Of a stretch of 64,000 bases of DNA, positions 5,174-27,734 are shown one piece after another. The notes below the pieces were generated by a model. The model made no database searches. It saw only the letters and a program-made list of their open reading frames with translations, and was not told where the DNA came from. The stretch spans positions 744,001-808,000 of the forward strand of contig NZ_CP078076.1 of the NCBI RefSeq assembly GCF_023101165.1, written 5' to 3'. The DNA comes from Microbacterium sufflavum (lineage in GTDB: Bacteria; Actinomycetota; Actinomycetes; Actinomycetales; Microbacteriaceae). The position numbers were made by a program, and so were the translations under genes. Every line of letters starts with the position of its first letter. The first letter of the stretch is position 1.

Positions 5174-5177
5174 GCGG

Positions 5178-6404
5178 TTACTCCGGCAGCGGCTCGTCGC
5201 GGTACAGCGCCTCGAAGGTGTCGAGCGTGCGGTTGATGTCGTGGATCGCGACGCCGTCGAGCGAGGCGTGCTGCATCCGCTCGTACTCGCCCGGCGAGGC
5301 GGTGAGGACATCGGTCAGTCGCGCGGCGAGCTCGTCGACGTTGCCCGGCTCGAACAGGTGGCCGTTCTCGCCGTCGTGCACCAGGTGCGGCAGGGCCACC
5401 GCGTCCGCGGCGACGATCGGCAGCGCCGACGCCATCGCCTCCATGGTCGCGATCGACTGCAGCTCGGCGATCGACGCGATCACGAACAGGCTCGCGCGCG
5501 ACAGCAGGGCGCGCAGCTCCTCGTCGGTCGTGCGGCCGTGGAACGTGACCCGGTCGGCGAGACCGAGCTGCGCGGTGAGGCTCTCGAGCTGCTTGCGCTG
5601 ATCTCCGCCGCCGACGATGTCGAACGTCGTGTTCAGCGCGGGGTCGAGCTTCGTCATCGCCTTGAGGATGACCTCGACCTGCTTCTCGGCCGTGAGGCGC
5701 CCGACGAACACCAGGCGGTTCTCCTCGCGCGGCGCGATCACCGGCGTGTACTGCGAGCGGTCGATGCCGCAGCTCACCGGGATGACGTTGCGTACCTCGA
5801 CCGTCTTCTCGAGGAAGTCGGCGGCGCGGCGGGTCGGGGTCGTGATGGCGCGGGTGAGGTCGAACGTGCGCTTCGCATCGGCCCAGGCGAACTTCAGCAC
5901 CAGGTCGTCGATGAACTTCGGCATGGTCGTGTGATCGAGGATGTTCTCGGCCATGACGTGGTTGGTCGCGATGACCGGGATGCCGCGCTGCTTCGCGATG
6001 CGCGCGAGGCCGCGCCCGATCACGATGTGCGACTGGATGTGCACGACGTCGGGCTGCACGCGGTCGAGCACCTTCCGCGCGTAGTGCTTTGAGCGCCACG
6101 GCCACACGAAACGCAGCCAGTCGTGCGGGGCCCAGCGCACGGACGGCAGCCGGTGCAGCGTCATCGGCTCGCCCTCGATCACCTCGGTGTGCGGTGCCGA
6201 GCGGCGGTACGCCTGGTTGGGGGCGACCACGTGCACGTCGTGTCCGCGCTGGACGAGGCCGGCCGCGAGACGCTCGGCGAAGCGGGCGGCACCGTTGATG
6301 TCGGGCGCGAAGGTGTCGCAGCCGATCAGGATCTTCAGCGGGCGGGGGGCTTCGGCGGCGTCGGGGGACGCCTCGGTCGGATCGTCGGAGGGGGTCACAG
6401 ACAT
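5178..6404 (-). CDS. GT4-type glycosyltransferase, first gene of the pair
   Basis: A 408-residue GT-B glycosyltransferase. After a charged 20-residue leader it begins KILIGCDTFAPDINGAARF, the typical GT4 N-domain. GRLTAEKQVEVILKAM and the EX7E region AELQSIATMEAMA form the donor site. It resembles actinobacterial mannosyl- and glucosyltransferases that act on diacylglycerol or phosphatidylinositol, but specificity is not readable here. The ATG at 6404 is preceded by AAGG. It is followed after 4 nt by the other GT4 gene. Confidence 0.88.
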   Translation of the reverse strand: MSVTPSDDPTEASPDAAEAPRPLKILIGCDTFAPDINGAARFAERLAAGLVQRGHDVHVVAPNQAYRRSAPHTEVIEGEPMTLHRLPSVRWAPHDWLRFVWPWRSKHYARKVLDRVQPDVVHIQSHIVIGRGLARIAKQRGIPVIATNHVMAENILDHTTMPKFIDDLVLKFAWADAKRTFDLTRAITTPTRRAADFLEKTVEVRNVIPVSCGIDRSQYTPVIAPREENRLVFVGRLTAEKQVEVILKAMTKLDPALNTTFDIVGGGDQRKQLESLTAQLGLADRVTFHGRTTDEELRALLSRASLFVIASIAELQSIATMEAMASALPIVAADAVALPHLVHDGENGHLFEPGNVDELAARLTDVLTASPGEYERMQHASLDGVAIHDINRTLDTFEALYRDEPLPE

Positions 6405-7618: not shown

Positions 7619-10612
7619 TCAGCGCGCGATGCGGAGGGTGCGCACCTCGAACGGACGCAGGTGCAGCGCTCCACCCGTCCGCGCGTCGCCGAGGTCGTCC
7701 TCGATCAGGCTCACCTCGCGCACCTCGCGATGCTCGAAGCCGACCGCCAGCTCGCCCGTGGTCCGACGCCCGAGGGCTTCGTACACGCGCACGATCACGT
7801 CGCCCGAGCCGTCGTCGGCGAGCTTGACCGCCGACACCACGATGCCCTCGCCCGACACGCTCACCAGGGGCTCGACCTCGCGGGCACCGCGCACGACGGT
7901 GGGCAGCGCGTTGAACCGGATTCCCTCGGCCGTGGCGATCGCGGCGTCCGCACCGATCACGAAGCCGACCTCGATGGCGTGGTGCCCGTGGTCGGTGTCG
8001 GGGTCGGGGAACCGCGGCGCGCGCAGCAGCGAGAGCCGCACGGTCGTGGTCACCCCGTCGTCACCGACCTCGCGCGAGGTGTCGTAGCCGTAGATCGAGT
8101 CGTTGACGAGCGCGGCGCCGAAGTCCTGCTCGCGCACCAGCACGAAGCGGTGCATCGAGGTCTCGAACTTCGCGGCCTCCCAGCTCGTGTTCGTGTGGGT
8201 GACGCGGGCCTGGTAGCCGAACTGGGTCTCGGCCTCGGTGTGCGACGCCTGGATGTCGAGCGGGAAGGCGAGCTTGAGCAGCTTCTCGGTCTCGTGCCAG
8301 TCGACCTCGTTGCGGAGTACCACGGTGCGCGAGTCGGGAGCGAGGAGGATGGTCTGCGTGATCGTCGACTCCGAGAACCGCCGCTCGACCACGATCGTCG
8401 CAACACCGTCCACCACCGAGGCCTCGATCGACGACACCGCGGTGAGGTCCTCGACGCTGTTGCGGTAGTAGCGGTCGATGTCCCACGCGTCCCACATGTT
8501 GGGGAAGTCCTGGTGCAGCTGGAACAGGTTCGCGGCCCTGCCCGGCGCGACCGTCTCGCGGCCGGACGCCCTGTCGACCGCCGACACGATGAGGCCCTCC
8601 GCCGACACCACGACCGACACGAGCTCGTTCTCCAGGCGCCAGCCGCCGTCCGCGTCGGTGAGCGTCACCGGGCTCGCGGTCGGCTCCCCGACGAACGCCG
8701 CGCCCAGCGCCCGTCCTCCCGCGACCGAGGTCGGCTCGAACCGCAGTGCGCGGTCCCCGTCGCCCGCGAGCGACCGGCGTGCGCGCTGCGCGATGTCGCG
8801 CGCCTCCGACAGCACGTCGGAGAGCACGGCGACGGCCTCGCGGTGCACCCAGGCGATCGAGGTGCCGGGGAGGATGTCGTGGAACTCGTGCAGCAGCACG
8901 GCCTGCCAGAGCCGGTCGAGCTCCGCCTGCGGGTACGCGGCCCCCGTGCGCACGGCGTCGGTCGCGGCCCACAGCTCCGCCTCGACGAGCGCGTGCTCGG
9001 CCCAGCGGTGCAGCGCCTTCGTGGCGTGCTGGCTGGTGAGGGTGCCGCGGTGCAGCTCGAGGTACAGCTCGCCCACCCACACGGCGGGGTGCGGCAGCTC
9101 GGCCTTCGCGGCGTCGAAGAAGTCGTCCGGGTGCTCCCAGACGACCTGCGCGCTGCCCTCGAGGTCGCGCAGGCGCGCGGCCTTGCCCGTCATCTCCCGG
9201 GTCGTGCCGCCACCGCCGTCACCCCAGCCGACCGGAGCGATCGATCGCGACGTGACACGGTTCTCCTTGAACTGCCGCGCGGCCTTGGCGACCTCCATGC
9301 CGCTGAGCTGCGAGTTGTAGGTGTCCATCGACGGGAAGTGCGTGAACACCTGGGAGCCGTCGATGCCCTCCCACAGGAACGAGTGGTGCGGGAAGACGTT
9401 CTGCTGGTTCCACGAGATCTTCTGCGTGAAGAACCACTCGAACCCGGCGCGGCGCATGAGCTGCGGCAGCGCGGGCGAGTAACCGAAGCTGTCGGGCAGC
9501 CACACGCCCTTCGACCGGATGCCGAACTCGCGCTCGAAGAAGCGCTGGCCGTGCGAGAACTGCCGCACGAGCGACTCGCCGGTGGGCATGACGGTGTCGG
9601 ACTCGACCCACATGCCACCCAGGGGCAGGAAGCGCCCCGCGGCGACCGCGGCTCTGACCCGCTCCCACACCTCGGGGCGGTGCTCCTTGATCCAGGCGTA
9701 CTGCTGCGCGCTGGACATGCCGTACTGGAACTCGGGCTGCTCCTCGATGAGCGTGGTCATGGACGAGGTGGTGCGGGCGACCTTGCGGATGGTCTCGCGC
9801 ACGGGCCACAGCCATGCGGAGTCGATGTGCGCGTGGCCGACCGCCGAGATGCGGTGCGCGCTCGCCTCGGCCGGGGCCGCGAGCACGTCGGCGAGTCGGG
9901 CGCGGGCGTCGGCGGCCGTCTCGACGATGCGCTGGAGGTCGAGCACGTCGAGGGCGTCGTCGAGCGCCTGGAGGATGCGCATGCGCCGCGGCGAGGTCGC
10001 CGGCAGCTCGGCCTGCAGCTCGAACAGCACCTCGATGTCGAGGGACAGGTCGAACACCTCGGGCTCGAACACCGCGAGGTCCATGCGGCGCAGGCGGTAC
10101 AGCGGCTCCTTCGACGAGGTGAGGATGTCGCCCTCCTGCGTCGGAAGGAAGGGGTGGTAGTCGAGCAGCACCGGGTTCGACGCCCCCTCGAGGTACAGCT
10201 CGACGGGCTCGTCGCCGTGGGCGTTCTCGGCGATCGGCACCCACTGGTTGCGCGGGTTGATGCTCTTGATCGGGGTGCCGTCGGGGCGGTACGCGAGGGC
10301 CTCGCACTGGAAGCCGGTCATGTTCACGTCGAAGCCGAGGTCGATCAGCGCCTCGACACGGCGCCCCTTCCAGTCGGCCGGCACGCGCCCCGTGAGCTTG
10401 AACCACGTGGTGCCCCAGGCCGGGCCCCACAGCGACCCGACCGCGCCCGGCGCGTAGTCGAGCGCCAGCCCCTCGGCCGGCGGGATCGGCTCCCCGGGCA
10501 GTTCGTGCAGCTCGACGGTCAGCGGCACGGAGGCCGAGTGGATCGCGGGACGGATGCGCTCTTCCAGCACGCGCTTGACGCGGCCGACGGTGAGCGAGGT
10601 GTCGTCATGCAT
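7619..10612 (-). CDS. GH38 alpha-mannosidase, intracellular
   Basis: A 997-residue class II alpha-mannosidase, the usual length for bacterial GH38. Residues 1-250 are an N-terminal beta domain. The catalytic domain opens with GHAHIDSAWLWP (residues 259-270), holding zinc ligands. The nucleophile aspartate lies in WLPDSFGYSP (Asp374), and WFFTQKISWNQQN follows. There is no signal peptide, so it acts in the cytoplasm on imported oligosaccharides, trimming alpha-mannosyl residues. The gene is divergent from the LacI regulator; a shared intergenic region holds two of the five 14-bp operators. With GH92, GH5 and the EndoH-like enzyme it forms an N-glycan pathway. Confidence 0.93.
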   Translation of the reverse strand: MHDDTSLTVGRVKRVLEERIRPAIHSASVPLTVELHELPGEPIPPAEGLALDYAPGAVGSLWGPAWGTTWFKLTGRVPADWKGRRVEALIDLGFDVNMTGFQCEALAYRPDGTPIKSINPRNQWVPIAENAHGDEPVELYLEGASNPVLLDYHPFLPTQEGDILTSSKEPLYRLRRMDLAVFEPEVFDLSLDIEVLFELQAELPATSPRRMRILQALDDALDVLDLQRIVETAADARARLADVLAAPAEASAHRISAVGHAHIDSAWLWPVRETIRKVARTTSSMTTLIEEQPEFQYGMSSAQQYAWIKEHRPEVWERVRAAVAAGRFLPLGGMWVESDTVMPTGESLVRQFSHGQRFFEREFGIRSKGVWLPDSFGYSPALPQLMRRAGFEWFFTQKISWNQQNVFPHHSFLWEGIDGSQVFTHFPSMDTYNSQLSGMEVAKAARQFKENRVTSRSIAPVGWGDGGGGTTREMTGKAARLRDLEGSAQVVWEHPDDFFDAAKAELPHPAVWVGELYLELHRGTLTSQHATKALHRWAEHALVEAELWAATDAVRTGAAYPQAELDRLWQAVLLHEFHDILPGTSIAWVHREAVAVLSDVLSEARDIAQRARRSLAGDGDRALRFEPTSVAGGRALGAAFVGEPTASPVTLTDADGGWRLENELVSVVVSAEGLIVSAVDRASGRETVAPGRAANLFQLHQDFPNMWDAWDIDRYYRNSVEDLTAVSSIEASVVDGVATIVVERRFSESTITQTILLAPDSRTVVLRNEVDWHETEKLLKLAFPLDIQASHTEAETQFGYQARVTHTNTSWEAAKFETSMHRFVLVREQDFGAALVNDSIYGYDTSREVGDDGVTTTVRLSLLRAPRFPDPDTDHGHHAIEVGFVIGADAAIATAEGIRFNALPTVVRGAREVEPLVSVSGEGIVVSAVKLADDGSGDVIVRVYEALGRRTTGELAVGFEHREVREVSLIEDDLGDARTGGALHLRPFEVRTLRIAR

Positions 10613-10664
10613 GGCTGTTCTCCGGGCTCGACGGTGAGGGGGCGTTCTGATGCTATCCGATTTA

Positions 10665-10678
10665 CTAAAACGATCTAG
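10665..10678. promoter_or_regulatory. LacI-type operator 1 (N-glycan regulon), GH38 side
   Basis: CTAAAACGATCTAG, centred on CG, is one of five related 14-bp sites in this locus. Read toward GH38, its right end runs into TTTAGT, a -10-like box, so a bound repressor would block polymerase. The sites at 13151 and 20956 overlap TATAGT in the same way. Confidence 0.7.
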
Positions 10679-10718
10679 CGATTCGAGTCTACGGCACACC
10701 CACGACGCTCCCGCGAGG

Positions 10719-10732
10719 CTAAACCGATCAAG
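10719..10732. promoter_or_regulatory. LacI-type operator 2 (N-glycan regulon), regulator promoter
   Basis: CTAAACCGATCAAG abuts the TAGGGT box at 10733-10738 of the regulator gene. It matches the site at 10665 in 12 of 14 positions. This suggests autoregulation by the LacI protein that starts at 10746. Confidence 0.7.
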
Positions 10733-10745
10733 TAGGGTGATGCCT

Positions 10746-11771
10746 ATGGCCTCGGGGAAACGCGTCACGATCGCGGACATCGCGCGACTGGCCGGCGTCT
10801 CCCCCGGGGCCGTCTCCTTCGCCCTGAACGGTCGCCCCGGCGTGAGCGAGGAGACCAGGCAGCGCATCCTCGCGATCATCGAGGAGCACCACTGGCAGCC
10901 CAGTTCCGCGGCACGCGCCCTGGTCGGCGCCCGTGCCAACGCGGTCGGCTTCGCACTCGCCCGCCCCGCCCGCTCGCTGGGCTCCGAGGCCTTCTTCACC
11001 GATCTGATCGCCGGCATCGAGTCGCGGCTGTCGGAGAGCAAGGTCAGCCTGCAGCTGCGCCTGGTCGCCGACATCGACGAGGAGATGGAGGTGCACCGCC
11101 AGTGGCGGTCGTCGAACCAGGTCGACGGCATCATCTACATCGATCCGCGCGACGACGACCCGCGCGCGGCGAACATCGCGTCGCTGGACGCCCGCGCCGT
11201 GATGATCGGGTCCGAGCCGTCCGCGGAGGGCGACGTGCCGAGCGTGTGGATCGGCGACGAGGAGGTGGCCGAGACGCTGTTCTCCTACCTCGCGGCCCTC
11301 GGGCACACCCGCATCGCCTACGTCGCCGGACCCGCCGAGCTCGAGCACACGCGCCTGCGCGCCGAGGTGCTGGAGCGCCTCGCGGCGGACGGCATCGCGG
11401 GCGAGGTCATCGCGACCGACTTCTCCCCCGCACGCGCCTCGGCGGTCACGCGCACTCTGCTCTCCGGCAAGCAGCGCCCGACCGCGATCGTCTACGACAA
11501 CGACGTGATGGCGGTCGCCGGACTCCGCGTCGCCCAGGAGATGGGGCGCACCGTGCCGCGCGACGTCTCCCTCGCCTCCTTCGACGACTCGGTGATCGCC
11601 GGGCTCATCAACCCGTCCATCACCGCCATGACGCGCGACACGTTCGAGCTCGGCGAGCAGGCGGCCACCCTCCTGCTGCAGCAGATCGAGGCGGGCGCGA
11701 CCCTGCCCAGCGTCGCCGGTCCCACGCCCACCCTCACGGCGCGCGAGAGCACGGCGCCGCCCGCGTCCTGA
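10746..11771 (+). CDS. LacI family transcriptional regulator of the N-glycan locus
   Basis: A 341-residue LacI/GalR regulator. The N-terminal helix-turn-helix and hinge read VTIADIARLAGVSPGAVSFALNG, and residues 60-335 are a periplasmic-binding-protein-like sensor domain with GRTVPRDVSLASFDDS near its end. Two in-frame ATGs exist (10740 and 10746). The TAGGGT box at 10733-10738 leaves a 7-nt gap to 10746, so I chose that one as a leaderless start. Five matching operators across 10.6-21.0 kb are its probable targets, which include GH38, GH5, the transporter-GH92 operon and the EndoH-like gene. The inducer is probably mannose or a Man-GlcNAc oligosaccharide (inference). Confidence 0.9.
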   Translation: MASGKRVTIADIARLAGVSPGAVSFALNGRPGVSEETRQRILAIIEEHHWQPSSAARALVGARANAVGFALARPARSLGSEAFFTDLIAGIESRLSESKVSLQLRLVADIDEEMEVHRQWRSSNQVDGIIYIDPRDDDPRAANIASLDARAVMIGSEPSAEGDVPSVWIGDEEVAETLFSYLAALGHTRIAYVAGPAELEHTRLRAEVLERLAADGIAGEVIATDFSPARASAVTRTLLSGKQRPTAIVYDNDVMAVAGLRVAQEMGRTVPRDVSLASFDDSVIAGLINPSITAMTRDTFELGEQAATLLLQQIEAGATLPSVAGPTPTLTARESTAPPAS

Positions 11772-11790
11772 CGCGCGCCGACGGATGGTG

Positions 11791-13101
11791 TCAGGCGTCG
11801 ACGACGGTGTTGACCGAGCCGTAGCGGCCGACCGCGTCGCCCGCGAGGTCGGGGCGGATCAGCTCACGGATGCCCCGAGCCTCCAGCGCCGCGGGGTCTG
11901 CCGCGTCGGCCGAGGTGACCAGGGCCGGGTCGAGTCCGGCTGTGCACGCATCAACCCACGCCTGGAACACCGCCCCTCCCGGGCTCAGCGCGGCCCGGCT
12001 CACCGGCACGTCGCGCTCGTCCACCTCGACCACGATCCCGGTCGGCCGCGCCGGGGCAGCCGTGCGCGCGCGCAGCTCGGGGATCAGCTCCGCGAACCGT
12101 CGGCCGATCGGCTTGGCCGCGCCGGACTGGTCGACCAGGCCGAGCGAATACTCCAGGTCGGGGAAGTCGCCCAGGTCGCGGCTCACGTCGTGGGAGCACC
12201 ACCACGTGACGCCCCAGAGGTTCTCGGTCCGCGCCGAGGAGCGCAGCGTCGCCTCCAGGAACCCGGGCATCTCGTCGGCCTCCAGACAGTTCGACGGCGC
12301 CCCCACCTCCTGCAGCCACACCGGACGCTGCGGGTCGGTCGCGAACGCCCGCGACAGCTCGATCAGATACTCGGCGTGCCGGTCGGCGGCGACGGAGCGA
12401 CCGCCGTAGCGCTGCGCCGTGCCGTTGAAGATCCACGAGTGGATCGTGGTCATGGCGCCCAGGCGCGAGGCGTGCGCCGGGGTGAACCCGTGCTCGTCCA
12501 TGTACCAGACCGCGTCGTACTCGCTGTGCACGTGAGGAAGTCCGGGAGCGGCCTCCCCCGCGGCCGCGAGCAGGGTCTCGATCCACGCCCCGGCCTCGTC
12601 GACCGTGACCGGCCACGGCGCGGGGTGCGTGTGCGCCGAGAACTGGTTGACCTCGTTGCCGAGCGTGAGGCCGAGGAAGTTCGGGGCATCGCGCAGCGCC
12701 TCCGCGAGCCGCTGCACCAGGGCGACCTGCCCGTCGAGCGCCCTCGGATCGGTGAACATGTTGCGGTCGTGCCAGGTGTACAGCCAGGCGGGCACGAAGT
12801 CGAAGCTCGACAGGTGGCCCTGGATCACGTCGACGCTCGCGTCGAGCTCGAACTCGGCGGCGATGTCGACCATCGCCCGCACGTCGTCGAGAGCCTTCGG
12901 GCGGATGAGGGTGCGGTTCGGCTGCAGCACGGTCCACAGCGGGAACACGCGCACATGGTCGAGGCCCAGTTCGGCGAGGGCGGCGAAGTCGCGGCGCACG
13001 TCGTCGGGCGTGAAGTCGAGCCAGGAGTGCATCCAGTCCTTCGACGGCGTGTAGTTCGCCCCGAACCTCAGGGGAGCGTCGAGAGCGCCACGCTGCGTCA
13101 T
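11791..13101 (-). CDS. GH5-type beta-mannosidase candidate, intracellular
   Basis: A 436-residue clan A glycoside hydrolase without a signal peptide. The (beta/alpha)8 fold shows the acid/base in [10 protein letters not shown] (Glu150) and the nucleophile in [10 protein letters not shown] (Glu265), plus [11 protein letters not shown] before strand 7. It resembles GH5 subfamily 18 proteins; bifidobacterial members cleave the Man-beta-1,4-GlcNAc core left after alpha-mannosidases. I assign that step by context: it lies between the LacI gene and the transporter and has its own copy of the operator. A beta-mannanase or beta-glucosidase is possible but fits less well. ATG 13101 has GAAAGG upstream. 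Confidence 0.8.
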
Positions 13102-13149
13102 GTGTTCGCACCTTTCGGACAGAGCCCCCCGACGAGGGCGGATCGCACC

Positions 13150-13164
13150 ACTATAACGCTTGAG
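13150..13164 (-). promoter_or_regulatory. Promoter -10 box and LacI-type operator 4, upstream of GH5
   Basis: On the minus strand TATAGT (plus-strand 13150-13155) is a strong -10 box. It overlaps the 14-bp operator at 13151-13164, which reads CTATAACGCTTGAG on the plus strand. No clear -35 box is visible. Same layout as at 20955-20969. Confidence 0.7.
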
Positions 13165-13219
13165 CAGCGAGACCGCGGCACGAGATTCCGCTCGCCGCCT
13201 GCGCTCCGCGCGCCCTCTC

Positions 13220-13266
13220 TTGACACCGATGGATTCGGATGGTTTCATCAGCTAAAGCGCTGTAGT
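13220..13266 (+). promoter_or_regulatory. Promoter and LacI-type operator 3 of the transporter-GH92 operon
   Basis: A perfect TTGACA at 13220-13225 is followed after 17 bp by TTTCAT (13243-13248). The operator CTAAAGCGCTGTAG lies just downstream at 13252-13265, over the expected +1. An alternative -10 is TGTAGT at 13261-13266, in the same overlap with the operator as the TATAGT boxes of sites 4 and 5. Either arrangement gives repression by the LacI protein. Confidence 0.7.
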
Positions 13267-13316
13267 CCGGTCTTGTCGGACCCGCGCCGAATCGCCCGCC
13301 TCGAGGAAGAAGCACG

Positions 13317-14618
13317 ATGAGAGTTCCCGCACGCATGGCTGCACTGGCAACCTTCACAATCGGCGCCCTCGCGCTCGCCGGCTGCACCGGCGGTGGCGCC
13401 GGCGCCGGAGACGCCGGGCCGATCGACACCTCCGGCGACCTGAGCGGCACGATCCAGTTCCAGACCTGGTCGCTCAAGAACGAGAAGTTCACGCCGTACT
13501 TCGAAGACCTGATCGACGCGTTCGAGAAGGAGCACCCCGACGTGAAGGTCGAGTGGCTCGACCAGCCCGGCGACGGCTACCAGGAGAAGATCCTCAGCCA
13601 GGCCAACGCCGACACCCTGCCCGACGTGCTCAACCTGCCGCCCGACATCGCCTACCCGCTGGTCGCCGCGGGCAAGCTGGTCGACCTCGACACGGCCGAC
13701 CCCGACCTGAAGTCGGCGTACAACACGGGCGCGTGGGAGGCCTACAGCCAGTACCCGGGCGTCGACGGCACCTATGGTCTGCCGTGGTACCTGTCGAGCG
13801 ATGCGTCGTGGTGGAACCTGGCCCAGCTCGCCCCCTACGGCGTCACGGAGCAGAGCCTGCCGACCACGGTCGACGAGCTGCTCACGCTCGCCACCGACGT
13901 GGCCACCGAGTCGGGCGGCAAGGTGCAGCTGCTCTCCTCGATCCCCGCGCTCGACACGTTCACGGCCGCGGGCATGGAGGTCATCAACGACAAGGGCGAG
14001 TTCGACTTCAACACCGACGAGGCCGCCGCGATCATCCAGAAGTACGCCGACGCGTACGCCGCGGGTGCCATGCCCGCCGAGGCGCTCACCGGCGACTACG
14101 GCGGCAACGCGGAGGCCTACATCCAGGAGAAGGTCGCCTTCACGACCGGCGGCACCGGCTTCACGACCGATCTGCAGAAGGACGCCCCGTCGCTGCTGGC
14201 GAACACCGTCGCCACCCCGCGCCTCGGCATCGCACCGCTCTACGTGCAGGGCCTGAACGTCTCCGCCGACTCCGACAACAAGGAAGCCGCGCTCGCGTTC
14301 GCCGAGTTCGCGACGAACCAGGAGAACCAGGTGGCGTTCTCGTCGCTCGCGGTCGGGACCGCGCCCGGAACGGCCGAGGGCGGCGACCAGGTCGTGGAGA
14401 ACATCGCCTCCTCCGTCACCGACGAGAAGCAGCTCGCCGCGATCGACACGGTGTTCGGCGCGATGAAGGACGCCAAGGCCCTGCCGTTCCAGTGGACGTC
14501 GGACATGGCGACCTACATGACGCAGCAGATCGCGCTCGCGGTCAACGGCGAGGCCGACCCGAAGGCCCAGCTCGACAAGATCGTCGAGTACGCCAACGCG
14601 AACCGCGTGGACCAGTGA
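13317..14618 (+). CDS. ABC sugar transporter, solute-binding lipoprotein (N-glycan locus)
   Basis: A 433-residue family 1 extracellular binding protein. A short signal peptide ends in the lipobox LALAGC, with Cys23 as the lipid anchor. The mature part shows the usual two-lobed pattern, including TLPDVLNLPPDIAYPLVAAG and the aromatic-rich YGLPWYLSSDASWWN likely to line the sugar site. It should capture oligosaccharides released by the secreted EndoH-like enzyme and pass them to the two permeases encoded directly downstream (2-nt gap). Exact ligand is inferred from the neighbours only. No ATPase gene is present, so a shared MsiK-type ATPase elsewhere must energise import. Confidence 0.92.
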   Translation: MRVPARMAALATFTIGALALAGCTGGGAGAGDAGPIDTSGDLSGTIQFQTWSLKNEKFTPYFEDLIDAFEKEHPDVKVEWLDQPGDGYQEKILSQANADTLPDVLNLPPDIAYPLVAAGKLVDLDTADPDLKSAYNTGAWEAYSQYPGVDGTYGLPWYLSSDASWWNLAQLAPYGVTEQSLPTTVDELLTLATDVATESGGKVQLLSSIPALDTFTAAGMEVINDKGEFDFNTDEAAAIIQKYADAYAAGAMPAEALTGDYGGNAEAYIQEKVAFTTGGTGFTTDLQKDAPSLLANTVATPRLGIAPLYVQGLNVSADSDNKEAALAFAEFATNQENQVAFSSLAVGTAPGTAEGGDQVVENIASSVTDEKQLAAIDTVFGAMKDAKALPFQWTSDMATYMTQQIALAVNGEADPKAQLDKIVEYANANRVDQ

Positions 14619-14620
14619 CC

Positions 14621-15547
14621 ATGAGCGCGAGCACCGGCACCCGGCAGCGAAGGACGACGATGAGGTCCCACCGGTGGTTCACCCCGTGGCTGCTCCTCGC
14701 CCCCGCCGTGATCTGGGTGCTGGTGTTCGCGCTGTGGCCGTTCCTCAACACCGTCGTCCTCAGCTTCACGAACGCCCGCCCGCTGCGCACCCCCGAGTTC
14801 GTGGGCGGCGCGAACTACGAGCGCATGTTCGGCGACGAGATGTTCTGGAACGCGCTGACGACGTGCCTCATCTATGTGGTCGTGTGCGTGCCGCTGCTCA
14901 CGATCCTGCCGCTGCTGCTCGCCCTGCTGGTGCAGAAGAAGCTGCCGGGCATCTCGTTCTTCCGCACCACCTTCTACTTCCCCGTGATCGCCTCGGTCGT
15001 GGTGGTCGCCCTCATCTGGACCTGGCTGTTCGACAGTCGCGGCATCATCAACCAGACCCTGGAGTTCCTCGGTCTGATCGACAAGCCGATGGCGTTCCTC
15101 GTCGACCGCTGGCTGCTGCTGGGCTGCGCCATCCTGCTCACGGTCTGGAAGGGCCTGGGCTACTACATGGTCGTGTACCTCGCGGCGCTGGGGAACGTGG
15201 GCAAGGAGCTCCACGAGGCCGCGATGCTCGACGGTGCCGGCTCGTTCCGTCGCTTCCTCTCGGTGACGATCCCGTCCGTGCGCGGCGCCATGCTCCTCAT
15301 CTCGGTGCTGATCGCGGTGTCGGCCATGCGCGTGTTCGCCGAGCTCGACGTGCTCTCCAAGAGCACCGGCGGCCCCGGCGGCTACGACATGTCGCTCGTG
15401 ATGCTGATCCGCCAGGTGGGCTCCGGACTCAACGGCAACATCGGCTACGCCTCCGCGATCAGCGTGGCCCTGTTCCTCCTGACGCTCGTGCCCCTGGCCG
15501 CGATCGCGTTCATGAACCGCGAGAAGAAGGCGAAGGTCTCCGCATGA
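14621..15547 (+). CDS. ABC sugar transporter permease 1 (N-glycan locus)
   Basis: A 308-residue MalF/LacF-type permease with six membrane helices, the first at about 22-42 (WLLLAPAVIWVLVFALWPF). The cytoplasmic EAA loop reads ELHEAAMLDGAGSFRRF, which docks to the ATPase. It starts 2 nt after the binding-protein stop and overlaps the next permease by 4 nt (ATGA), so translation is coupled. Confidence 0.93.
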   Translation: MSASTGTRQRRTTMRSHRWFTPWLLLAPAVIWVLVFALWPFLNTVVLSFTNARPLRTPEFVGGANYERMFGDEMFWNALTTCLIYVVVCVPLLTILPLLLALLVQKKLPGISFFRTTFYFPVIASVVVVALIWTWLFDSRGIINQTLEFLGLIDKPMAFLVDRWLLLGCAILLTVWKGLGYYMVVYLAALGNVGKELHEAAMLDGAGSFRRFLSVTIPSVRGAMLLISVLIAVSAMRVFAELDVLSKSTGGPGGYDMSLVMLIRQVGSGLNGNIGYASAISVALFLLTLVPLAAIAFMNREKKAKVSA

Positions 15548-16473
15548 CCACGCTCACCCCACCGCGCGCCGACGACCGCGCCGACGACGCCCCGGTCCGC
15601 CCCGCGCGCGAGCGCATCTTCCGGCACCGCGGCTCCGGCGACTTCAGCAAGCCGACCCTCGGCGGGCTGATCGGCCGCTACGCGCTGCTCCTCCTGGTGC
15701 TCTTCCTGGTGATCGGGCCGTTCGTGTGGCAGCTGTCCACGTCGTTCAAGGGTCCGCAGGAGAACATCTACTCGTTCCCACCGGAGCTGATCCCGCGCGA
15801 CCCCACCCTGCAGAACTACACGCGCGTCGCCGACATCGTGCCGGTGTACCTGTACGCGTGGCACTCCCTGCTCGTCTCGCTCGGCACGGTGCTGAGCAAC
15901 GTGATCCTGGCGACCTTCGCGGGCTACGCGCTGGGCTGCATGCGGTTCCGCGGCAAGTGGATCGTGATGGGCATCCTGCTCTCCACCCTGCTGTTCCCCG
16001 GTGAGGTGACCGTGACCAGCAACTTCCTCACCATCCGCGCCCTCGGGCTCGCGGACACGCTGTGGGGCGTGTTCCTGCCCGGAGCGATCAGCGCCATGAA
16101 CGTGCTGCTCGTGGCCACCGCGTGCCGCATGATCCCGAAGGACGTGCTCGACGCGGCGACCGTCGACGGCGCGACCACGTGGCAGCGCATCCGGCACATC
16201 GTGTGGCCCAACATCCGCGGCATGGTGTCGGTCGTCGCGATCTTCGCGTTCATCGGCGCGTGGGACGACTACCTGTGGCCGCTGATCGTGCTCTCCGACC
16301 CCGCGAAGTACACGCTCACGGTCGGCATGGCGTACCTGAACAGCAGCTTCTCGGTCGACCCGCGCCTGATCGCCGCGGGCACCATGATCGCCCTCGTGCC
16401 GATCATCATCATGTTCTCCTTCACGCAGCGGTTCTTCTTCAAGGGCGTGCAGGAGGGTGCGCTGAAGGGGTGA
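15544..16473 (+). CDS. ABC sugar transporter permease 2 (N-glycan locus)
   Basis: A 309-residue MalG/LacG-type permease. A 45-residue charged N-terminal tail precedes the first helix (YALLLLVLFLVIGPFVW). The EAA-type loop reads VLDAATVDGATTWQRI. It overlaps permease 1 and the GH92 start by 4 nt each, so the whole unit is translationally coupled. It pairs with permease 1 to form the channel. Confidence 0.93.
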   Translation: MTTLTPPRADDRADDAPVRPARERIFRHRGSGDFSKPTLGGLIGRYALLLLVLFLVIGPFVWQLSTSFKGPQENIYSFPPELIPRDPTLQNYTRVADIVPVYLYAWHSLLVSLGTVLSNVILATFAGYALGCMRFRGKWIVMGILLSTLLFPGEVTVTSNFLTIRALGLADTLWGVFLPGAISAMNVLLVATACRMIPKDVLDAATVDGATTWQRIRHIVWPNIRGMVSVVAIFAFIGAWDDYLWPLIVLSDPAKYTLTVGMAYLNSSFSVDPRLIAAGTMIALVPIIIMFSFTQRFFFKGVQEGALKG

Positions 16474-19400
16474 CCGCGGCGCCGCTGACCCCGGCCGCCG
16501 GTCCGGCCGATCCCCCGTCGTCGCGCCCGCACGCCGGGGTGCTCCCCGGCGACGTGTTCGCGTTCGCTTTCGATCCCGCCCTGGGGCCGCAGCGGCTGGA
16601 CGTGCCGGGGCTCTCCGACCTCACCGTCACCCCCGAGACCGTGCTGCACTGGGCGTTCTACGCCGACGGGGCGGACGCGACCCTGGCTCCGCACGCGGCG
16701 CTCGCGGTGACGGTGGACGTGCGAACGGCGGACGGGACGCGGCTGAGCGACCACGCCGCCGTCCGCGACCGCTACGACGTGCCGCTCACGCCCGAGGCGC
16801 AGTTCGCCGCCCGCTGGAGCCTCCCGGAGCAGTGGAACGCCGATACGGTCGCGCTCGCCCCTCTGTCGACCGGAGGCGCGGTGCGGGCCACGGTCGAGCT
16901 GGTGCTGGGCGCGCCGTCGCTCACGGGCGCGGAGGGTCTGCCCGCCCGCGCGACCGGATTCGTGCAGGTCCGTGTGGAGGAACGCCGACCGGCGGACCCC
17001 GACCTGCCGCCGGTCGAGCGCGTCGACACCCGCCGCGGCACGCACTCCGGACCGCGGTTCTCGCGCGGCAACACGATCCCGGCGGTGGCGGTGCCGCACG
17101 GCTTCACGTTCGTCACGCCGGCGACCGACGCCGTGGACGCCCGCTGGCCGTACCGCCCGTTCGTGCACGACGATCCGCAGGGCCGCCGCCTGGAGGCCCT
17201 GCAGTTCTCGCACCAGCCGAGCCCGTGGATCGGTGATCGCTCGGTGCTGCAGCTCATGCCGTTCCTCGGCCGCGCCCGCTCGGGGCGCGCGGCACGGCGA
17301 CGGTGGATCGTGCCGGGCAGCGAACGGGCGCGCCCCCACGAGTACGCCGCCGACCTTGGCGACGGACTGCACGTGGCGATGACCGCGACCTCGCACGCGG
17401 CGGCGTTCCGGGTGGCCGCCGACGACCCCACGGCCACCGTCGGCTTCGTGATCGATCAGCTCACCGACGACGGCCGCCTGACCTGGACGGACGACGGCGA
17501 GTTCGAGGGCTGGATCCCGGAGGGCGCGGAGGACTGGGGCAACGCGCCGCGCTGCTACTTCGCCGGGGCGACGGTCGGCGCGACCGAGGCGCGCGGCCGG
17601 CTCGACGACGACGGGCGCGGGCGCGTCGCCGGGCACCTCGACGGGCGCGGCAGCCTGGAGGTCCGCATCGCGGTGTCGTTCCTGTCGATCGCGCAGGCCC
17701 GGCGCAGCCTCGCCCAGGAGGCTCCGCCGTCCCGGTCCTTCGAGGAGCTGCGCGCCGCCGCAGCCGCCGCGTGGGACCGCCTGCTCGGCCGCGTGACCCT
17801 CCCTCCGCTCGACCCGCGGCAGCGGCCGTACCGCGGTCTCGCCGACGAGGAGCATCGCGCCCGGATCGCGGCGACCCTGCACCGCATGCACCTGTACCCG
17901 AACACGGCGAGCGAGAACGCGGGCACCACCACCGCGCCCGACCACCGCTTCGCCGACGTGTTCGCGCCGCGCGCGCCGTTCGGGGAGACCGAGACCAGTG
18001 CGCCCGTGCCCGGGGGCGAGCTCGTGGTGAACAACGGCTACTGGGACACCTACCGCACGGAGTGGCCCGCGCTGGCGCTGCTCGACCCCGCCCTGACCGG
18101 GCAGCTGCTGGACGGCCAGCTCGCCCAGTTCCGGCGGGGCGGGTGGATGGCGCGGTGGAGCGCCCCGGGGTACGTCGACAGCATGGTGGGCACGTCGAGC
18201 GACCAGATCTTCGCCGACGCCGCGCGCTGGGGTGTGGCGTTCGACCGGGAGGCCGCGTTCGAGAGCGGCTGGCGCCACGCGTGCGAGCCGGGGCCGGACG
18301 CCCGTCGCGGCCGCAAGGGCATCGGTCGCGGGCGCTTCACCGGGTACATCTCCTCCGACGTGCCGGAGGGCATGAGCTGGAGCATCGAGAACGCCGTGAG
18401 CGACGCGGCCCTCGGGCGGTTCGCGCGGCAGCTCGCCGATGACGCCGCCACCGCCACGGACGCCGCCCGCTACCGCGCGTTCGCCCGCTACCTCGCCAAC
18501 CGCGCCCGGTCGTACCGCACCCTGTTCGATCCCGACTCGGGCTTCTTCCGCGGCCGCGACGCGCACGGGTCGTTCGCGCCCGGCTTCGACCCCCGGGTGT
18601 GGGGTGGCGACAACGTGGAGACCAACGCGTGGGGGATGTCGGTCGGCGCGGTGCACGATGGCCCCGCGCTCGCGACGCTGTACGGCGGCCCCGCCGGTCT
18701 CGGCCGCCACCTCGACGCGCTGTTCGCCGAGCCGGAGACCGCCGACGAACGCTTCGGCGGCGCCTACGGCACGGTCATCCACGAGCAGCGGGAGGCCCGC
18801 GCGCTGCGCTCCGGCATGTGCGCGATCTCGAACCAGCCCGCCCACCACATCCCCTTCCTGTATGCGTTCACCGACCGCCCGTGGGCGGGCGCTGCGATCG
18901 TGCACGACCTCGCGGGGCGTCTGTTCGCCGGCGCGCACATCGGGCAGGGCTTCCCCGGCGACGAGGACAACGGCGAGATGAGCGCCTGGTGGCTGTGGGC
19001 GGCGCTGGGCCTGTATCCGCTCGAGCTCGCCTCCGGGCGGCTGCGCATCGGCTCCCCGCTGTTCGACGACGTCCGCGTCGATCGCGGTGACGGGTCGACG
19101 CTGCGGATCCGCGTGCAGCGGAGCGAGCCGGGCGCCCACGTGCTCCGGTCGGCGCTGCTCGACGGCGACCCCCTCCCCACGGCCGACCTGCCCGTGGAAC
19201 GACTGACCGGCGATGCGGTGCTCGACCTGACCTTCACGCTCGACCCCGCGGAGGCGCTGGAGGCCGCGGCGCCCGACGTCGCCGTCGAGCCGTGGCACCC
19301 GGACCTGACCTCGGAGGCGGGCGAGTCGATCGCCTCCCGGGGCCTCGACCACGCGGCGCGACTGTTCGACGACGGCGACCCCGCGGGGGCCGACGGCGTG

Positions 19401-19703
19401 AGCCTGCGGCCGGGCGAGTGGGTGGGGTGGCGCTTCCCCGCGGCGCGCGACATCACCGACGTGAGCGTGACCGCGGTCACCGCGGCGCCCGCGTCCGGGT
19501 GGCACTGGGAGGTCGAGCGGGCGGACGGCGGGTGGGAGCGGGTGGCCGCGACCCATGCCGAGGCGCTGCGGCCGGATCGCACGACCCCGTTCACCCTGGC
19601 CGCACGGACCGTGACCCCGGCGATCCGCCTGTGCGCGGACGCCGAGGTCACGATCCGTCAGCTCGAGCTGTTCGCCCTCGCGCCGGTCACTTCGTCAGCG
19701 TGA
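16470..19703 (+). CDS. GH92 alpha-mannosidase, intracellular
   Basis: A 1077-residue GH92 enzyme, a calcium-dependent inverting exo-alpha-mannosidase family, most often alpha-1,2-specific. GTG 16470 overlaps the permease stop (GTGA) and no signal peptide follows, so it is cytoplasmic. The catalytic domain carries NNGYWDTYRTEWP, the substrate motif NQPAHHIPF (about residue 788) and the base region GDEDNGEMSAWW (about 830-841). The last roughly 140 residues look like a beta-sandwich domain. As the last gene of the transporter operon it should trim imported high-mannose chains before GH38 and the beta-mannosidase act. Its end overlaps the convergent EndoH-like gene by 17 nt. Confidence 0.93.
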   Translation: MTAAPLTPAAGPADPPSSRPHAGVLPGDVFAFAFDPALGPQRLDVPGLSDLTVTPETVLHWAFYADGADATLAPHAALAVTVDVRTADGTRLSDHAAVRDRYDVPLTPEAQFAARWSLPEQWNADTVALAPLSTGGAVRATVELVLGAPSLTGAEGLPARATGFVQVRVEERRPADPDLPPVERVDTRRGTHSGPRFSRGNTIPAVAVPHGFTFVTPATDAVDARWPYRPFVHDDPQGRRLEALQFSHQPSPWIGDRSVLQLMPFLGRARSGRAARRRWIVPGSERARPHEYAADLGDGLHVAMTATSHAAAFRVAADDPTATVGFVIDQLTDDGRLTWTDDGEFEGWIPEGAEDWGNAPRCYFAGATVGATEARGRLDDDGRGRVAGHLDGRGSLEVRIAVSFLSIAQARRSLAQEAPPSRSFEELRAAAAAAWDRLLGRVTLPPLDPRQRPYRGLADEEHRARIAATLHRMHLYPNTASENAGTTTAPDHRFADVFAPRAPFGETETSAPVPGGELVVNNGYWDTYRTEWPALALLDPALTGQLLDGQLAQFRRGGWMARWSAPGYVDSMVGTSSDQIFADAARWGVAFDREAAFESGWRHACEPGPDARRGRKGIGRGRFTGYISSDVPEGMSWSIENAVSDAALGRFARQLADDAATATDAARYRAFARYLANRARSYRTLFDPDSGFFRGRDAHGSFAPGFDPRVWGGDNVETNAWGMSVGAVHDGPALATLYGGPAGLGRHLDALFAEPETADERFGGAYGTVIHEQREARALRSGMCAISNQPAHHIPFLYAFTDRPWAGAAIVHDLAGRLFAGAHIGQGFPGDEDNGEMSAWWLWAALGLYPLELASGRLRIGSPLFDDVRVDRGDGSTLRIRVQRSEPGAHVLRSALLDGDPLPTADLPVERLTGDAVLDLTFTLDPAEALEAAAPDVAVEPWHPDLTSEAGESIASRGLDHAARLFDDGDPAGADGVSLRPGEWVGWRFPAARDITDVSVTAVTAAPASGWHWEVERADGGWERVAATHAEALRPDRTTPFTLAARTVTPAIRLCADAEVTIRQLELFALAPVTSSA

Positions 19704-20892
19704 ACGTCACCTCGGTGCTGTTGCCGGCGACGTCGACCACCTGCAGCGTGTTGACCCCGAGGACGGCACCGAGCACGCCGGGCTTCAGCACGTCGAGGTC
19801 GCGGGACTCCCCGTTCTCCAGGTCGGTCGGCACGCCGTTCAGCACGACCCGGTCGATGAGCCCCTCGTCGTGCAGCCGGAAGCTCACCCGCTTGTAACCG
19901 TCGTCCTTCTGCTTGGTGAACTGCGCGCCGCTCTTGAACGTCACGGTGGGCGCGGTCGTGTCGGCCGGAGGCGCCTGGAAGACCGTGGCCTCTCCCTTCA
20001 ACGCCTGCGTGATCCCGGACAGGTAGGCGGACTGGTCGGTCGCCGTGAGGTTGTAGGCGACGTAGACGCCGTACCCGTCGGCGACCGTGCGCTGCGCGAA
20101 GTCTGCCGCGGTGGCGGCGCTCGTGTTCGACAGGTCGATCGCCGCGGCGCCGAGCCGCGCGCGATCGTCCAGGCCCGGCACGGTCGGGGCGTCGTACGTC
20201 GGGTAGTACGGGTTCCAGGCGTGGTCGAGCACCCCGTCGACGTCGAACTGCGTGAAGTCGGTGGTGGTGTACGACGGGCCGATCGCGTAGAGCGTGATGA
20301 GCTTGTCGGGGCCGAGCCGCTCGCGCAGCGCGGTCGCCAGCCACCCGAACGACTGGGTATTGGGCTGCGGTGTGCCGTTGGCGCCGTACTCCGTCCACTC
20401 GTCGTCGAAGTCGATGCCGTCGAGGCCGTACGTGGTCACCGCGTCCTCGAGCTGCGCGGCGAAGGCGTCGGCGGCGGCGAACGAGGTGAAGTTCGCGAAC
20501 CCGGCCCCCTGGTGGTTGCCGAGCACGGAGAGCAGCACCTTCGTGCCCTGCGCCTGCAGCGGCCGGATCTGGTTCTCCGCATCCTGCAGGGTCTCGGTCA
20601 CCCGCTCGTTCAGGTGCAGGTACGCCTGCTGGCCGTCGTAGTTGATGTTCGCGGCGAAGATCATCGCGAGATCCACGGCGGGGCGACCCGAATCGGCCAG
20701 GGTGTAGTCGGCGACGTTCGCTAAATCGTTCGAGTTGACCTCGACGTAGACCGCCAGCTTCGCCTCGTCGACGGTGGCGTCCGCAGCGGCCGGGCCCGTC
20801 GCGGCGACCGCGGTGAGGGCCACCGCAGCGGCGGAGAGGGCGGCCGGGAAGGCGCGCCGATGGCGGTGACTTCTGGATGAGGACGGATACAT
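19687..20892 (-). CDS. Secreted EndoH-like endo-beta-N-acetylglucosaminidase (GH18)
   Basis: A 401-residue secreted enzyme very similar to Streptomyces EndoH as I remember it. It has a Sec signal (Arg-rich start, hydrophobic 17-32, cleavage likely after AAADA). KVLLSVLGNHQGAGFANF precedes the GH18 motif GLDGIDFDDEW, with catalytic Glu165 and the assisting Asp163. NPYYPTYDAP and GYGVYVAYNL follow. Residues 310-401 are an extra Ig-like beta domain common at the C-terminus of actinobacterial carbohydrate enzymes. EndoH cuts the chitobiose core of high-mannose N-glycans, releasing ManxGlcNAc, and this is the only extracellular hydrolase of the locus. It has its own promoter and operator. Confidence 0.92.
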   Translation of the reverse strand: MYPSSSRSHRHRRAFPAALSAAAVALTAVAATGPAAADATVDEAKLAVYVEVNSNDLANVADYTLADSGRPAVDLAMIFAANINYDGQQAYLHLNERVTETLQDAENQIRPLQAQGTKVLLSVLGNHQGAGFANFTSFAAADAFAAQLEDAVTTYGLDGIDFDDEWTEYGANGTPQPNTQSFGWLATALRERLGPDKLITLYAIGPSYTTTDFTQFDVDGVLDHAWNPYYPTYDAPTVPGLDDRARLGAAAIDLSNTSAATAADFAQRTVADGYGVYVAYNLTATDQSAYLSGITQALKGEATVFQAPPADTTAPTVTFKSGAQFTKQKDDGYKRVSFRLHDEGLIDRVVLNGVPTDLENGESRDLDVLKPGVLGAVLGVNTLQVVDVAGNSTEVTFTLTK

Positions 20893-20954
20893 GGGGGTTC
20901 GTCTCCTTCGGCATCGTTGTCGAGCGCGAGCCGCATCGGCGCGACTCGCGGCCG

Positions 20955-20969
20955 ACTATATCGCTTAAG
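20955..20969 (-). promoter_or_regulatory. Promoter -10 box and LacI-type operator 5, upstream of the EndoH-like gene
   Basis: TATAGT on the minus strand (plus-strand 20955-20960) overlaps the operator CTATATCGCTTAAG at 20956-20969. The layout is identical to the one before the GH5 gene. A weak TTTCAC lies 17 bp upstream of the -10. This places the secreted enzyme in the same regulon although it sits 10 kb from the regulator gene. Confidence 0.7.
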
Positions 20970-23373: not shown

Positions 23374-25008
23374 TCAGACGCGCACGTCCCCCACGAGGTT
23401 CACCCGGATCCCCATCCCGTCGAACATGGCGGCCTTCGCGATGAGGGCCCGGTCCGCGGTCTCGGCGTCGGGCGCATAGACGAGCTGCGCGTGGTTGGCC
23501 TTGTGCCGCGCCATGAACTGGTCGCGCGAGATGCCGTGCAGCACCACGTGGGCGATCGGCCACTCCGGGTTGGTGGCGTCCTTACGGCGCTGCGTCTCCT
23601 CCTCCGGCAGCTCGACGACCGAGGCGCGGAAGATGTCGGCCTGCAGCACACCGTCCGCGATGAACACGCGCGACAGCACGACCTCGCCGGGCTTCGAGAC
23701 GCCGTTGATGGTGGCGCCGCCCGCGGGGAAGAACACATGGCCCTGGCGCCAGCCCTCCGCGTGCTCCCAGCCGCCGAGGTGCGAGGCGGGCACGGAGCCC
23801 GAGATCTCGTACACCCACACGAACTGCCCGTCGAAGTCCTCGCCCCAGCGCACGTCGTGCAGCGTGTTGTCGGGCACGAGGCCCATCGCCCGCCAGACCC
23901 GGTCGGTCACGAGTGCGTCGACCGCGACGCCCTCGTCGGCCTCGTTGAAGTGCGGGAACGCGCGGCCCTCGTGCAGCACGCGGGAGCCGTCGCGCGACGT
24001 GACCGGCGGGCGCTCCGTGGTGTTGAGGATGCCCTCGGCGAGGTCGGACGCGGGCACCAGATCTTTGAGACCCTGCTGGTACTGGATGCCGACGGCGTCG
24101 AGCCCGAAGTCGTCGGCGATGCGCAGCGCGGCGATGTACATCTTGAGCTGCCACTGCACCTGCTCGCGCGTGAGCTCGGTCGCGGCGTCGTCGCCGTAGC
24201 GGAAGGTCATGCCGTGGTCGATCAGCCAGTCGTACGCGGCGTCGGCCTCGTCCTCCGTCACGGTCAGCATCTCGGCGTACAGCGCCGACTGCGACAGCCG
24301 CTCCTTGTAGATGCCGGTGTGGTTGAGCAGTTCGTCGTCGAAGATCGCGTTGTACATGCCCATGCAGCCCTCGTCGAACACGCCGATGATGGCCTTGTCG
24401 GCGCGCAGCTGCGCGGCCAGGGCCTCACCGAGCTGCTTCTCCGGGCTGTCCGGCAACGCGGGCAGCGGACGCACGTGCGACTGGTCGTGCGTGATCGCGC
24501 CGGTCTCGGTCCACTCGCGGATGCCGTCGATGAACCAGTCGTCGGTGTAGTCGACCGACCAGGTGGTGGCGTAGGGCTTGCCCATCTTCGTGAGCCCGGC
24601 GTTCAGGCCGAGCAGACCGACCAGCCCCGGCCAGTCACCGGCGAAGTTGGCGACCGTGAGGATCGGGCCCTCGTGCGTGCGCAGCCCGGCGAGCACGTGG
24701 TGCGAGTACTGCCAGTTGGCGATCGCGACCACCAGCGGGGCATCGGTGGGGATGTCGCGGAACACCTCGAGGCCCATGCGCTGGCTGGAGATGAAGCCGT
24801 GACCAGTCTCGGGGTCGACGCCGAACGGCCGGATCACCTCCCAGCCGAGGTCGTTCAGCACGCCCGTCACACCGGCCTCGAGCTCCACCTGGGTCGGCCA
24901 CCCGGCGACGTTCGCCGACTCGCGCAGATCGCCCGAGGTGATGAGGTACGCGGTCTTCGGTGCCGCGGTCGGGCGCGCGGCGGGCGCGGGCAGGGTGTAC
25001 GTGGTCAT
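23374..25008 (-). CDS. L-fucose/D-arabinose isomerase-like sugar isomerase
   Basis: A 544-residue cytoplasmic protein of the L-fucose/L-arabinose isomerase-like group. Recognisable parts include ANWQYSHHVLAGLRTHEGPILTVANF in the N-domain, GVFDEGCMGMYNAIFDDELL in the middle and a beta-rich C-domain (GGWEHAEGWRQGH). Classical FucI also acts on D-arabinose, giving D-ribulose. Next to a sugar kinase and D-arabinan-type hydrolases, D-arabinose isomerisation is the best guess for this protein (inference). Its ATG at 25008 overlaps the kinase stop (ATGA), so the two are translationally coupled. An L-fucose or other pentose substrate remains possible. Confidence 0.78.
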   Translation of the reverse strand: MTTYTLPAPAARPTAAPKTAYLITSGDLRESANVAGWPTQVELEAGVTGVLNDLGWEVIRPFGVDPETGHGFISSQRMGLEVFRDIPTDAPLVVAIANWQYSHHVLAGLRTHEGPILTVANFAGDWPGLVGLLGLNAGLTKMGKPYATTWSVDYTDDWFIDGIREWTETGAITHDQSHVRPLPALPDSPEKQLGEALAAQLRADKAIIGVFDEGCMGMYNAIFDDELLNHTGIYKERLSQSALYAEMLTVTEDEADAAYDWLIDHGMTFRYGDDAATELTREQVQWQLKMYIAALRIADDFGLDAVGIQYQQGLKDLVPASDLAEGILNTTERPPVTSRDGSRVLHEGRAFPHFNEADEGVAVDALVTDRVWRAMGLVPDNTLHDVRWGEDFDGQFVWVYEISGSVPASHLGGWEHAEGWRQGHVFFPAGGATINGVSKPGEVVLSRVFIADGVLQADIFRASVVELPEEETQRRKDATNPEWPIAHVVLHGISRDQFMARHKANHAQLVYAPDAETADRALIAKAAMFDGMGIRVNLVGDVRV

Positions 25009-27726: not shown

Positions 27727-27734
27727 GGCGGCCA

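Follow-up and report, generated by a model that had tools for sequence, protein, structure and literature searches.

The locus and its proposed function

What would a locus serve in Microbacterium sufflavum that combines a predicted secreted endoglycosidase, a sugar importer, three mannosidase genes and its own regulator? It lies in a stretch of 64,000 nucleotides, hereafter called the window (C1:744001-808000 of the one-contig, 3.57-Mb genome), of which positions 7619-20892 hold eight genes, for glycoside hydrolases (GH) of families GH38, GH5, GH92 and GH18, a LacI-family regulator, and the solute-binding protein (SBP, a lipoprotein) and two permeases of an ATP-binding cassette (ABC) importer (Table 1). 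Judging from the sequence, the locus very probably confers LacI-controlled use of high-mannose N-glycans from the glycoproteins of other organisms. The secreted EndoH-type GH18 would cut between the two core GlcNAc residues, the lipoprotein-dependent importer would take up the freed Man(5-9)GlcNAc, and in the cytoplasm GH92 would trim alpha-1,2-mannose and GH38 would take off alpha-1,3- and alpha-1,6-mannose. GH5_18 would split the remaining Man-beta-1,4-GlcNAc, mannose and GlcNAc would join central metabolism via genes elsewhere, and LacI would repress all units through a shared operator until an intermediate sugar relieved the repression.

By orientation the genes form five transcription units: GH38; LacI; GH5; SBP-permease-permease-GH92; and GH18. 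The GH38 (-) and LacI (+) genes are divergent, as are GH5 (-) and the SBP operon (+), and GH18 (-) is convergent to GH92. Export signals were judged by eye from the N-termini, without a predictor. They were seen only in GH18 (Sec-like) and the SBP (lipobox LAGC) and not in the N-termini of GH38, GH5 and GH92, which fits internal degradation after a single external cut.

A sequence-only reading had earlier described this DNA as one contiguous block, with its own regulator, that encodes every step. All the genes it named are present, with limits corrected by Pfam, NCBIfam and PDB sequence searches. Its secreted EndoH-like GH18 passed the EndoH equivalog cut-off, matched EndoH at 6e-85 and has a Sec-like N-terminus, its GH92, GH38 and GH5 beta-mannosidase assignments are supported by sequence and by the catalytic residues that were checked, and its view that only GH18 and the binding protein are exported fits the N-termini read by eye. 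The regulator is borne out, at the level of sequence, by the LacI gene and by a shared operator at four exact sites. The genes are indeed adjacent, but in five units by orientation rather than one. That every step is encoded is too strong a claim: each enzyme it named could be assigned, and the lipoprotein-equipped importer is present as a lipobox SBP with two permeases, but an ABC ATPase is absent from the locus, and the candidate genes for the ATPase and for GlcNAc and mannose are found in other parts of the genome. The end of the block, which had been placed at 20969, is the end of the operator preceding endoH, the GH18 gene.

Predicted enzymes

The GH18 protein scored 363.4 bits against the NCBIfam EndoH equivalog NF045482 (Endoglyc_H; cut-off 300), and matched EndoH in the PDB (1edt) with E 6e-85 and Pfam GH18 with 2e-9. 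EndoH is grouped with EndoBT-3987 and EndoF1, the substrates being treated as high-mannose type (PMC8374693; papers are cited here from extracts of their text). The catalytic motif DGIDFDDE aligns with DGVDFDDE of EndoH, so that DGxDxDxE is kept, and the protein has a C-terminal extension of about 95 amino acids.

In GH38 the N-terminal (4e-92), middle and C-terminal Pfam domains are all present, and the best solved relatives are four chains named 'Alpha-mannosidase' (7ufr, 7ufu, 7ufs and 7uft, E 2e-241 to 2e-211), which we take to be Bifidobacterium longum enzymes. Removal of alpha-1,3- and alpha-1,6-mannose is the activity expected of it.

GH5 had no Pfam match at 0.001 and received no name from NCBIfam either, and was therefore identified by PDB sequence search. 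The closest chain, 9y4v ('Glycosyl hydrolase', with no function named), matched residues 1-434 with E 4e-259, and solved chains named GH5_18 or BlMan5B matched with 3e-130 to 2e-147, among them ScGH5_18 (7lr7, 2e-147) and BlGH5_18 (7lqx, 9e-138). An 'exo-beta-1,4-mannosidase', 6gvb, presumably from Cutibacterium acnes, gave 1e-109, and after the GH5_18-type chains the next match was an endo-mannanase at only 4e-13. Residues E150 and E265, assumed here to be the two catalytic glutamates, were invariant in an alignment of eight rows. The protein is thus nearest to GH5_18 enzymes, with Man-beta-1,4-GlcNAc as the expected substrate; GH5_18 is among the families reported to split this disaccharide (PMC10154615), and the C. 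acnes GH5_18 acts on the N-glycan core (PMC6160142).

Residues 50-922 of GH92 align with 7nsn (E 8e-163), whose length of 1411 residues and residue numbers fit NnGH92 of PMC10167667. The acid E717, bases D831/D833 and +1 residues W253 and H771-E772 match those named for NnGH92, so the acid Glu, base Asp and +1 Trp and His-Glu of the Bt3990/NnGH92 type are all found, and the predicted enzyme keeps the determinants of alpha-1,2-specificity named there (PMC10167667). NnGH92, an alpha-1,2-mannosidase, was itself assayed with yeast mannan and with O-glycans of fungi (PMC10167667), and fungal glycoproteins would be a likely source of high-mannose glycans in soil; the locus might thus serve fungal cell-wall mannan or O-linked mannans generally, with N-glycans incidental. 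This is unlikely, however, as such mannans need neither an endo-beta-N-acetylglucosaminidase nor a beta-mannosidase for Man-beta-1,4-GlcNAc, and here the EndoH and GH5_18 genes share the operator and GH92 has no export signal by eye.

Distribution among relatives

With E <= 1e-40 as the limit, 42 of 149 genus genomes, this one among them, carry a GH5_18-like gene, the least similar at 38% identity, and so do 19 of 299 genomes drawn from the family, the genus itself counted. Apart from this genome 41 genus genomes were positive, and 40 of them supplied 42 loci (G023, with a partial GH5, was left out); 18 more came from the 16 positive genomes in other genera of the family, giving 60 in total, and gene presence was called by tblastn. 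GH92 and EndoH occurred together in the stretch of 16 of the 42 genus loci, 15 of which had the full eight-gene set. In a named collection, at least 573 of the 591 matches to the pattern code for a relative of GH5 (E <= 1e-3). Of these matches 80 were kept (35 Microbacterium, 31 Streptomyces; some contigs short), and all eight components were present in 13 of them, every one Microbacterium.

A third context of GH5_18-like genes, with GH3, GH125 and another SBP and LacI, was observed in loci L090-L092 and L098-L102, and also in Promicromonospora (L177), Umezawaea (L169) and Curtobacterium (L193). No GH38 match was found in the stretches of these loci.

A shared LacI-type operator

One LacI-type operator, with the pattern CTNAARCGNTNTAG, precedes GH38/LacI and GH5 as well as the importer operon and endoH (Table 1). 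The genome holds four exact matches, all in the locus, and with at most one mismatch the window holds 6 matches against 0.14 expected, the largest number in a shuffle being 2. Relatives were scanned with a looser pattern, CTNNARCGNTNNAG. Sites recur in the GH38/LacI and GH5/SBP stretches and, in close relatives, before endoH; in L076, L081 and L096 the site stands before a GH38 gene that is placed elsewhere. Loci L124-L162, 39 in number, are Microbacterium-like or from Arthrobacter, and a site precedes the SBP in all 32 of them that could be scored, where their own site density predicts 0.11 per stretch; these 32 partly overlap with the genus and family genomes surveyed and are not an independent sample. 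The proportion was 6 of 33 scorable among the 41 loci L163-L203. The operator being shared, the genes look like one regulon from their sequence, in which LacI would bind the four sites.

A one-mismatch site just upstream of an open reading frame resembling D-2-hydroxyacid dehydrogenase was taken as background, and an off-locus near-match was also found at C1:6883. An operator-like site at 20721-20734, inside the endoH coding sequence, is kept in close relatives and may serve as a second repressor site or be conserved simply as part of the gene.

Table 1 Predicted genes and operator sites of the locus, in window positions (aa, amino acids)
Feature	Position	Strand	Evidence or context
GH38 alpha-mannosidase, 997 aa	7619..10612	-	Pfam N/mid/C domains, PDB relatives; export signal none seen
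Operator CTAAAACGATCTAG	10665..10678	+	Divergent GH38/LacI promoter region
LacI-family regulator, 343 aa	10740..11771	+	Pfam LacI 3e-14, Peripla_BP_3 5e-30
GH5_18 beta-mannosidase (predicted), 436 aa	11791..13101	-	PDB sequence matches; export signal none seen
Operator CTCAAGCGTTATAG	13151..13164	-	GH5/SBP stretch, site nearer GH5
Operator CTAAAGCGCTGTAG	13252..13265	+	GH5/SBP stretch, site nearer SBP operon
ABC-importer solute-binding lipoprotein, clade A, 433 aa	13317..14618	+	SBP_bac_8 3e-26; SBP tree
ABC-importer permease 1, 308 aa	14621..15547	+	Best models among those listed UgpA and MalF, under equivalog cut-offs
ABC-importer permease 2, 309 aa	15544..16473	+	Best models MalG and UgpE, under equivalog cut-offs
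GH92 alpha-1,2-mannosidase (predicted), 1077 aa, GTG start	16470..19703	+	Pfam GH92 3e-93; 7nsn 8e-163; export signal none seen
Secreted GH18 EndoH-type endo-beta-N-acetylglucosaminidase (predicted), 401 aa	19687..20892	-	NCBIfam Endoglyc_H equivalog; PDB EndoH 1edt
Operator CTTAAGCGATATAG	20956..20969	-	Precedes endoH

Proposed exchangeable uptake cassettes

The SBP tree contained 41 rows, namely 38 typed loci of those fetched, the window and the outliers L089 and L105; the 22 of 60 fetched loci without an SBP type either had no SBP match or were these outliers. Three starred groups were obtained. Group A consists of the window and 19 loci, all of the genus, and has GH92 in 18 of 20, EndoH in 17 of 20, GH20 in 4 and an EndoS-like GH18 in none; L079, a 7.7-kb contig, is counted as a miss for both GH92 and EndoH. 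Group B (11 loci, 10 of the genus) has neither GH92 nor EndoH, and has the EndoS-like GH18 in 6, GH20 in 10, each of two sulfatases in 4, GH29 in 2 and GH2 in 1; the GH20 and sulfatase counts were made with queries trimmed to domains. Group C (8 loci, one of the genus and seven of other genera) has EndoH in 7 and GH92 in 4.

These counts bear on the GH18 gene of the window, which forms a unit of its own convergent to GH92, and whose EndoH counterpart is missing from the fetched stretch in 3 of 20 clade-A loci (L054 and L055, 20 kb; L079). The protein could on these grounds be a chitinase-like neighbour unrelated to the importer and the mannosidases, but this is highly improbable: its scores mark it as an EndoH and are far lower with chitinase models, its gene is preceded by the shared operator, and EndoH is found with 17 of the 20 clade-A SBPs, whichever strand it is on, and with none of the 11 of clade B.

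The tree of GH5 contained 60 rows, including 10 of the 11 clade-B rows (L088 was dropped as short). On it A and B interleave, with 5 changes, at least 4 of them forced by starred branches, and a single clade of A was rejected (p-AU 4.5e-5; the test was run after the tree was known, and the p value is only a guide).

The EndoS-like GH18 of the clade-B loci matched the Pfam EndoS barrel with 1e-85, and its nearest solved chains were 6kpl, then a corynebacterial CP40 protein, 7puj and EndoS chains. The first of these is Endo-CoM, and EndoS2 is listed among enzymes with high-mannose activity (PMC8374693), so the case for group B as complex-type is carried by GH20, the sulfatases and the fucosidase. 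In those clade-B loci that were inspected, the N-terminus of the EndoS-like protein looks like a signal by eye, and no signal was seen in GH20, the sulfatases, GH29 and GH2, the gene starts being partly uncertain. Two clade-B sulfatase sequences had the CxPSR motif and, by eye, no export signal, which suggests intracellular desulfation of imported N-glycans. Loci L066, L067, L068 and L071 of clade B represent a probable complex-type sister locus with two sulfatase genes.

The system would seem, on balance, to be built by plugging one of two exchangeable uptake cassettes into a constant core of GH38, LacI, GH5_18 and one operator code: EndoH, GH92 and SBP clade A for high-mannose glycans, or the EndoS-like GH18 and GH20, with or without sulfatases, GH29 and GH2, and SBP clade B for complex glycans, which may be sulfated and core-fucosylated and would also be degraded inside the cell. 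Importer and outer enzymes would have been switched together at least four times on the GH5_18 tree.

As GH38 and GH5_18 are common to the EndoH versions and to those with the EndoS-like GH18 and GH20, and GH20 also occurs in 4 of 20 clade-A loci, the locus in the window might itself serve complex or hybrid glycans, or the short core Man3GlcNAc, instead of high-mannose glycans. We regard this as very unlikely: EndoH and GH92 are present, the eight genes include no GH20, sulfatase, fucosidase or EndoS-like GH18, and the genome gave no EndoS-type match above the cut-off and two GH20 matches about 1.3 Mb away.

Importer and genes outside the locus

The lipobox cysteine of the SBP, Cys23, is invariant in 21 rows. 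If importer and outer enzymes move together around a constant core, the importer of the window would, by association, take up the products of EndoH. A structure model of the SBP (pLDDT 87.1) had 6wpm as its best fold match.

Several observations weigh against the high-mannose regulon and its matched importer and cassettes. The predicted fold of the SBP is that of a generic oligosaccharide binder, and the pneumococcal N-glycan binder NgtS (5SWA/5SWB) was not among the 50 fold matches shown, so the fold lends no support to binder specificity. At one mismatch or less, the reversed control of the operator is commoner in the genome than the pattern (22 vs 8), and for this reason only the exact sites carry weight; the pattern was first read off this locus, and its genome-wide uniqueness is thus a measure of reach and not of function. 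Among the relatives' loci 15 of 60 had no CTNNARCGNTNNAG site, most of them lacking a nearby importer of type A, B or C, and in L070, L075, L076, L084 and L086 endoH lies downstream of GH92, in the same direction, without a site of its own. The SBP of L105 is sister to clade A but excluded from it, and its locus has neither EndoH nor GH92 in 20 kb. The difference between groups A and B in having GH92 or EndoH (Fisher p 1.4e-7) ignores relatedness; in independent pairs, from which L079 was excluded, importer type and GH92/EndoH agreed in 4 of 4, with p 0.125 from only 4 pairs.

No ABC ATPase was found among the locus genes, and two MalK-type OB-domain matches elsewhere in the genome are candidate importer ATPases. 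The genome also has two type-I phosphomannose isomerase matches outside the locus and a NagA-like gene (220.7 bits, cut-off 225.65) beside GH20 at 2.04 Mb. The whole-genome scan gave no exact operator match at any of the candidate ATPase, NagA-like or phosphomannose isomerase places, and the genome had no GH94 match. After EndoH-type cleavage one GlcNAc stays on the protein, and none of the eight genes was recognised as acting on it.

Comparison with known systems

With GH38, GH5_18, an SBP with permeases and an endoglycosidase in one place, the locus has the make-up of an actinobacterial N-glycan locus. N-glycan locus 1 of C. acnes likewise has GH38 and GH5_18 without predicted signal peptides, an ABC SBP with permeases, a regulator and a GH18 candidate endoglycosidase, called only a possible endo-beta-N-acetylglucosaminidase, and its accessory genes differ between strains; it differs in having GH20, GH92 is unmentioned in the extract of its locus description, and the pathway was proposed for Man3GlcNAc2 of host glycoproteins (PMC6160142). 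The high-mannose system of B. longum also combines an outside endo cut, import and inside mannosidases including GH38, but its operon holds three GH38 and a GH125 in place of GH92 and one GH38 (review PMC10154615). Streptococcus pneumoniae shares a GH92 alpha-1,2-mannosidase, a putative GH38 and an ABC importer whose SBP, NgtS, binds Man5GlcNAc, whereas its mannosidase cluster, EndoD and importer lie at separate places by locus tag and SpGH92 trims before EndoD (GH85) acts; the cluster holds GH125, GH20, GH29 and ROK, and the extracted part of the gene table shows no GH5 (PMC5215778). In unannotated Streptomyces genomes the core operon LacI-SBP-permeases-GH5_18-GH38 was complete in 26 of 31 loci (32-63% identity), but GH92 or EndoH matched in 0 of the 31 stretches.

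The kind of locus is thus already published (C. acnes, B. longum, S. pneumoniae), and the exchangeable cassettes are the interesting part. The sequence-only reading had held such pathways to be best known from gut bifidobacteria and Bacteroides, and a full set with its own regulator in a Microbacterium-like genome to be little described. No N-glycan locus in Microbacterium appeared in the titles and abstract openings of the matches listed from the open-access literature, but the loci of C. acnes (PMC6160142) and S. pneumoniae (PMC5215778) are described, and Streptomyces genomes carry the core. PMC10167667 mentions a GH92 from Microbacterium sp. M-90.

Two GT4 glycosyltransferase genes at window positions 3941-6404, one or both of which are kept beside the locus in several close relatives, are probably unrelated to it. 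On its other side, positions 23374-42008 encode a FucI-family isomerase, a LacI, a DUF2961 protein (GH172, we assume), an SBP, a DUF4185 protein (GH183) and a permease. This stretch looks like the D-arabinan locus type of Microbacterium arabinogalactanolyticum, a known kind, which resembles the N-glycan locus in its secreted endo-enzymes, presumed ABC import and exo-enzymes without signal, and differs in its glycan and enzyme families (PMC10509167). An M. arabinogalactanolyticum record also carries the N-glycan locus (L154).

The loci offer EndoH-type, EndoS-like, GH92 and probably intracellular sulfatase enzyme sets for glycan work, and the four operator sites provide a direct route to testing the inducer. 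The pairing of clade-A and clade-B loci makes importer specificity predictable, and testable against the adjoining endoglycosidase. Selfish N-glycan use would be extended from host-associated bacteria to free-living actinobacteria, whose food would be the glycoproteins of fungi, plants or animals.

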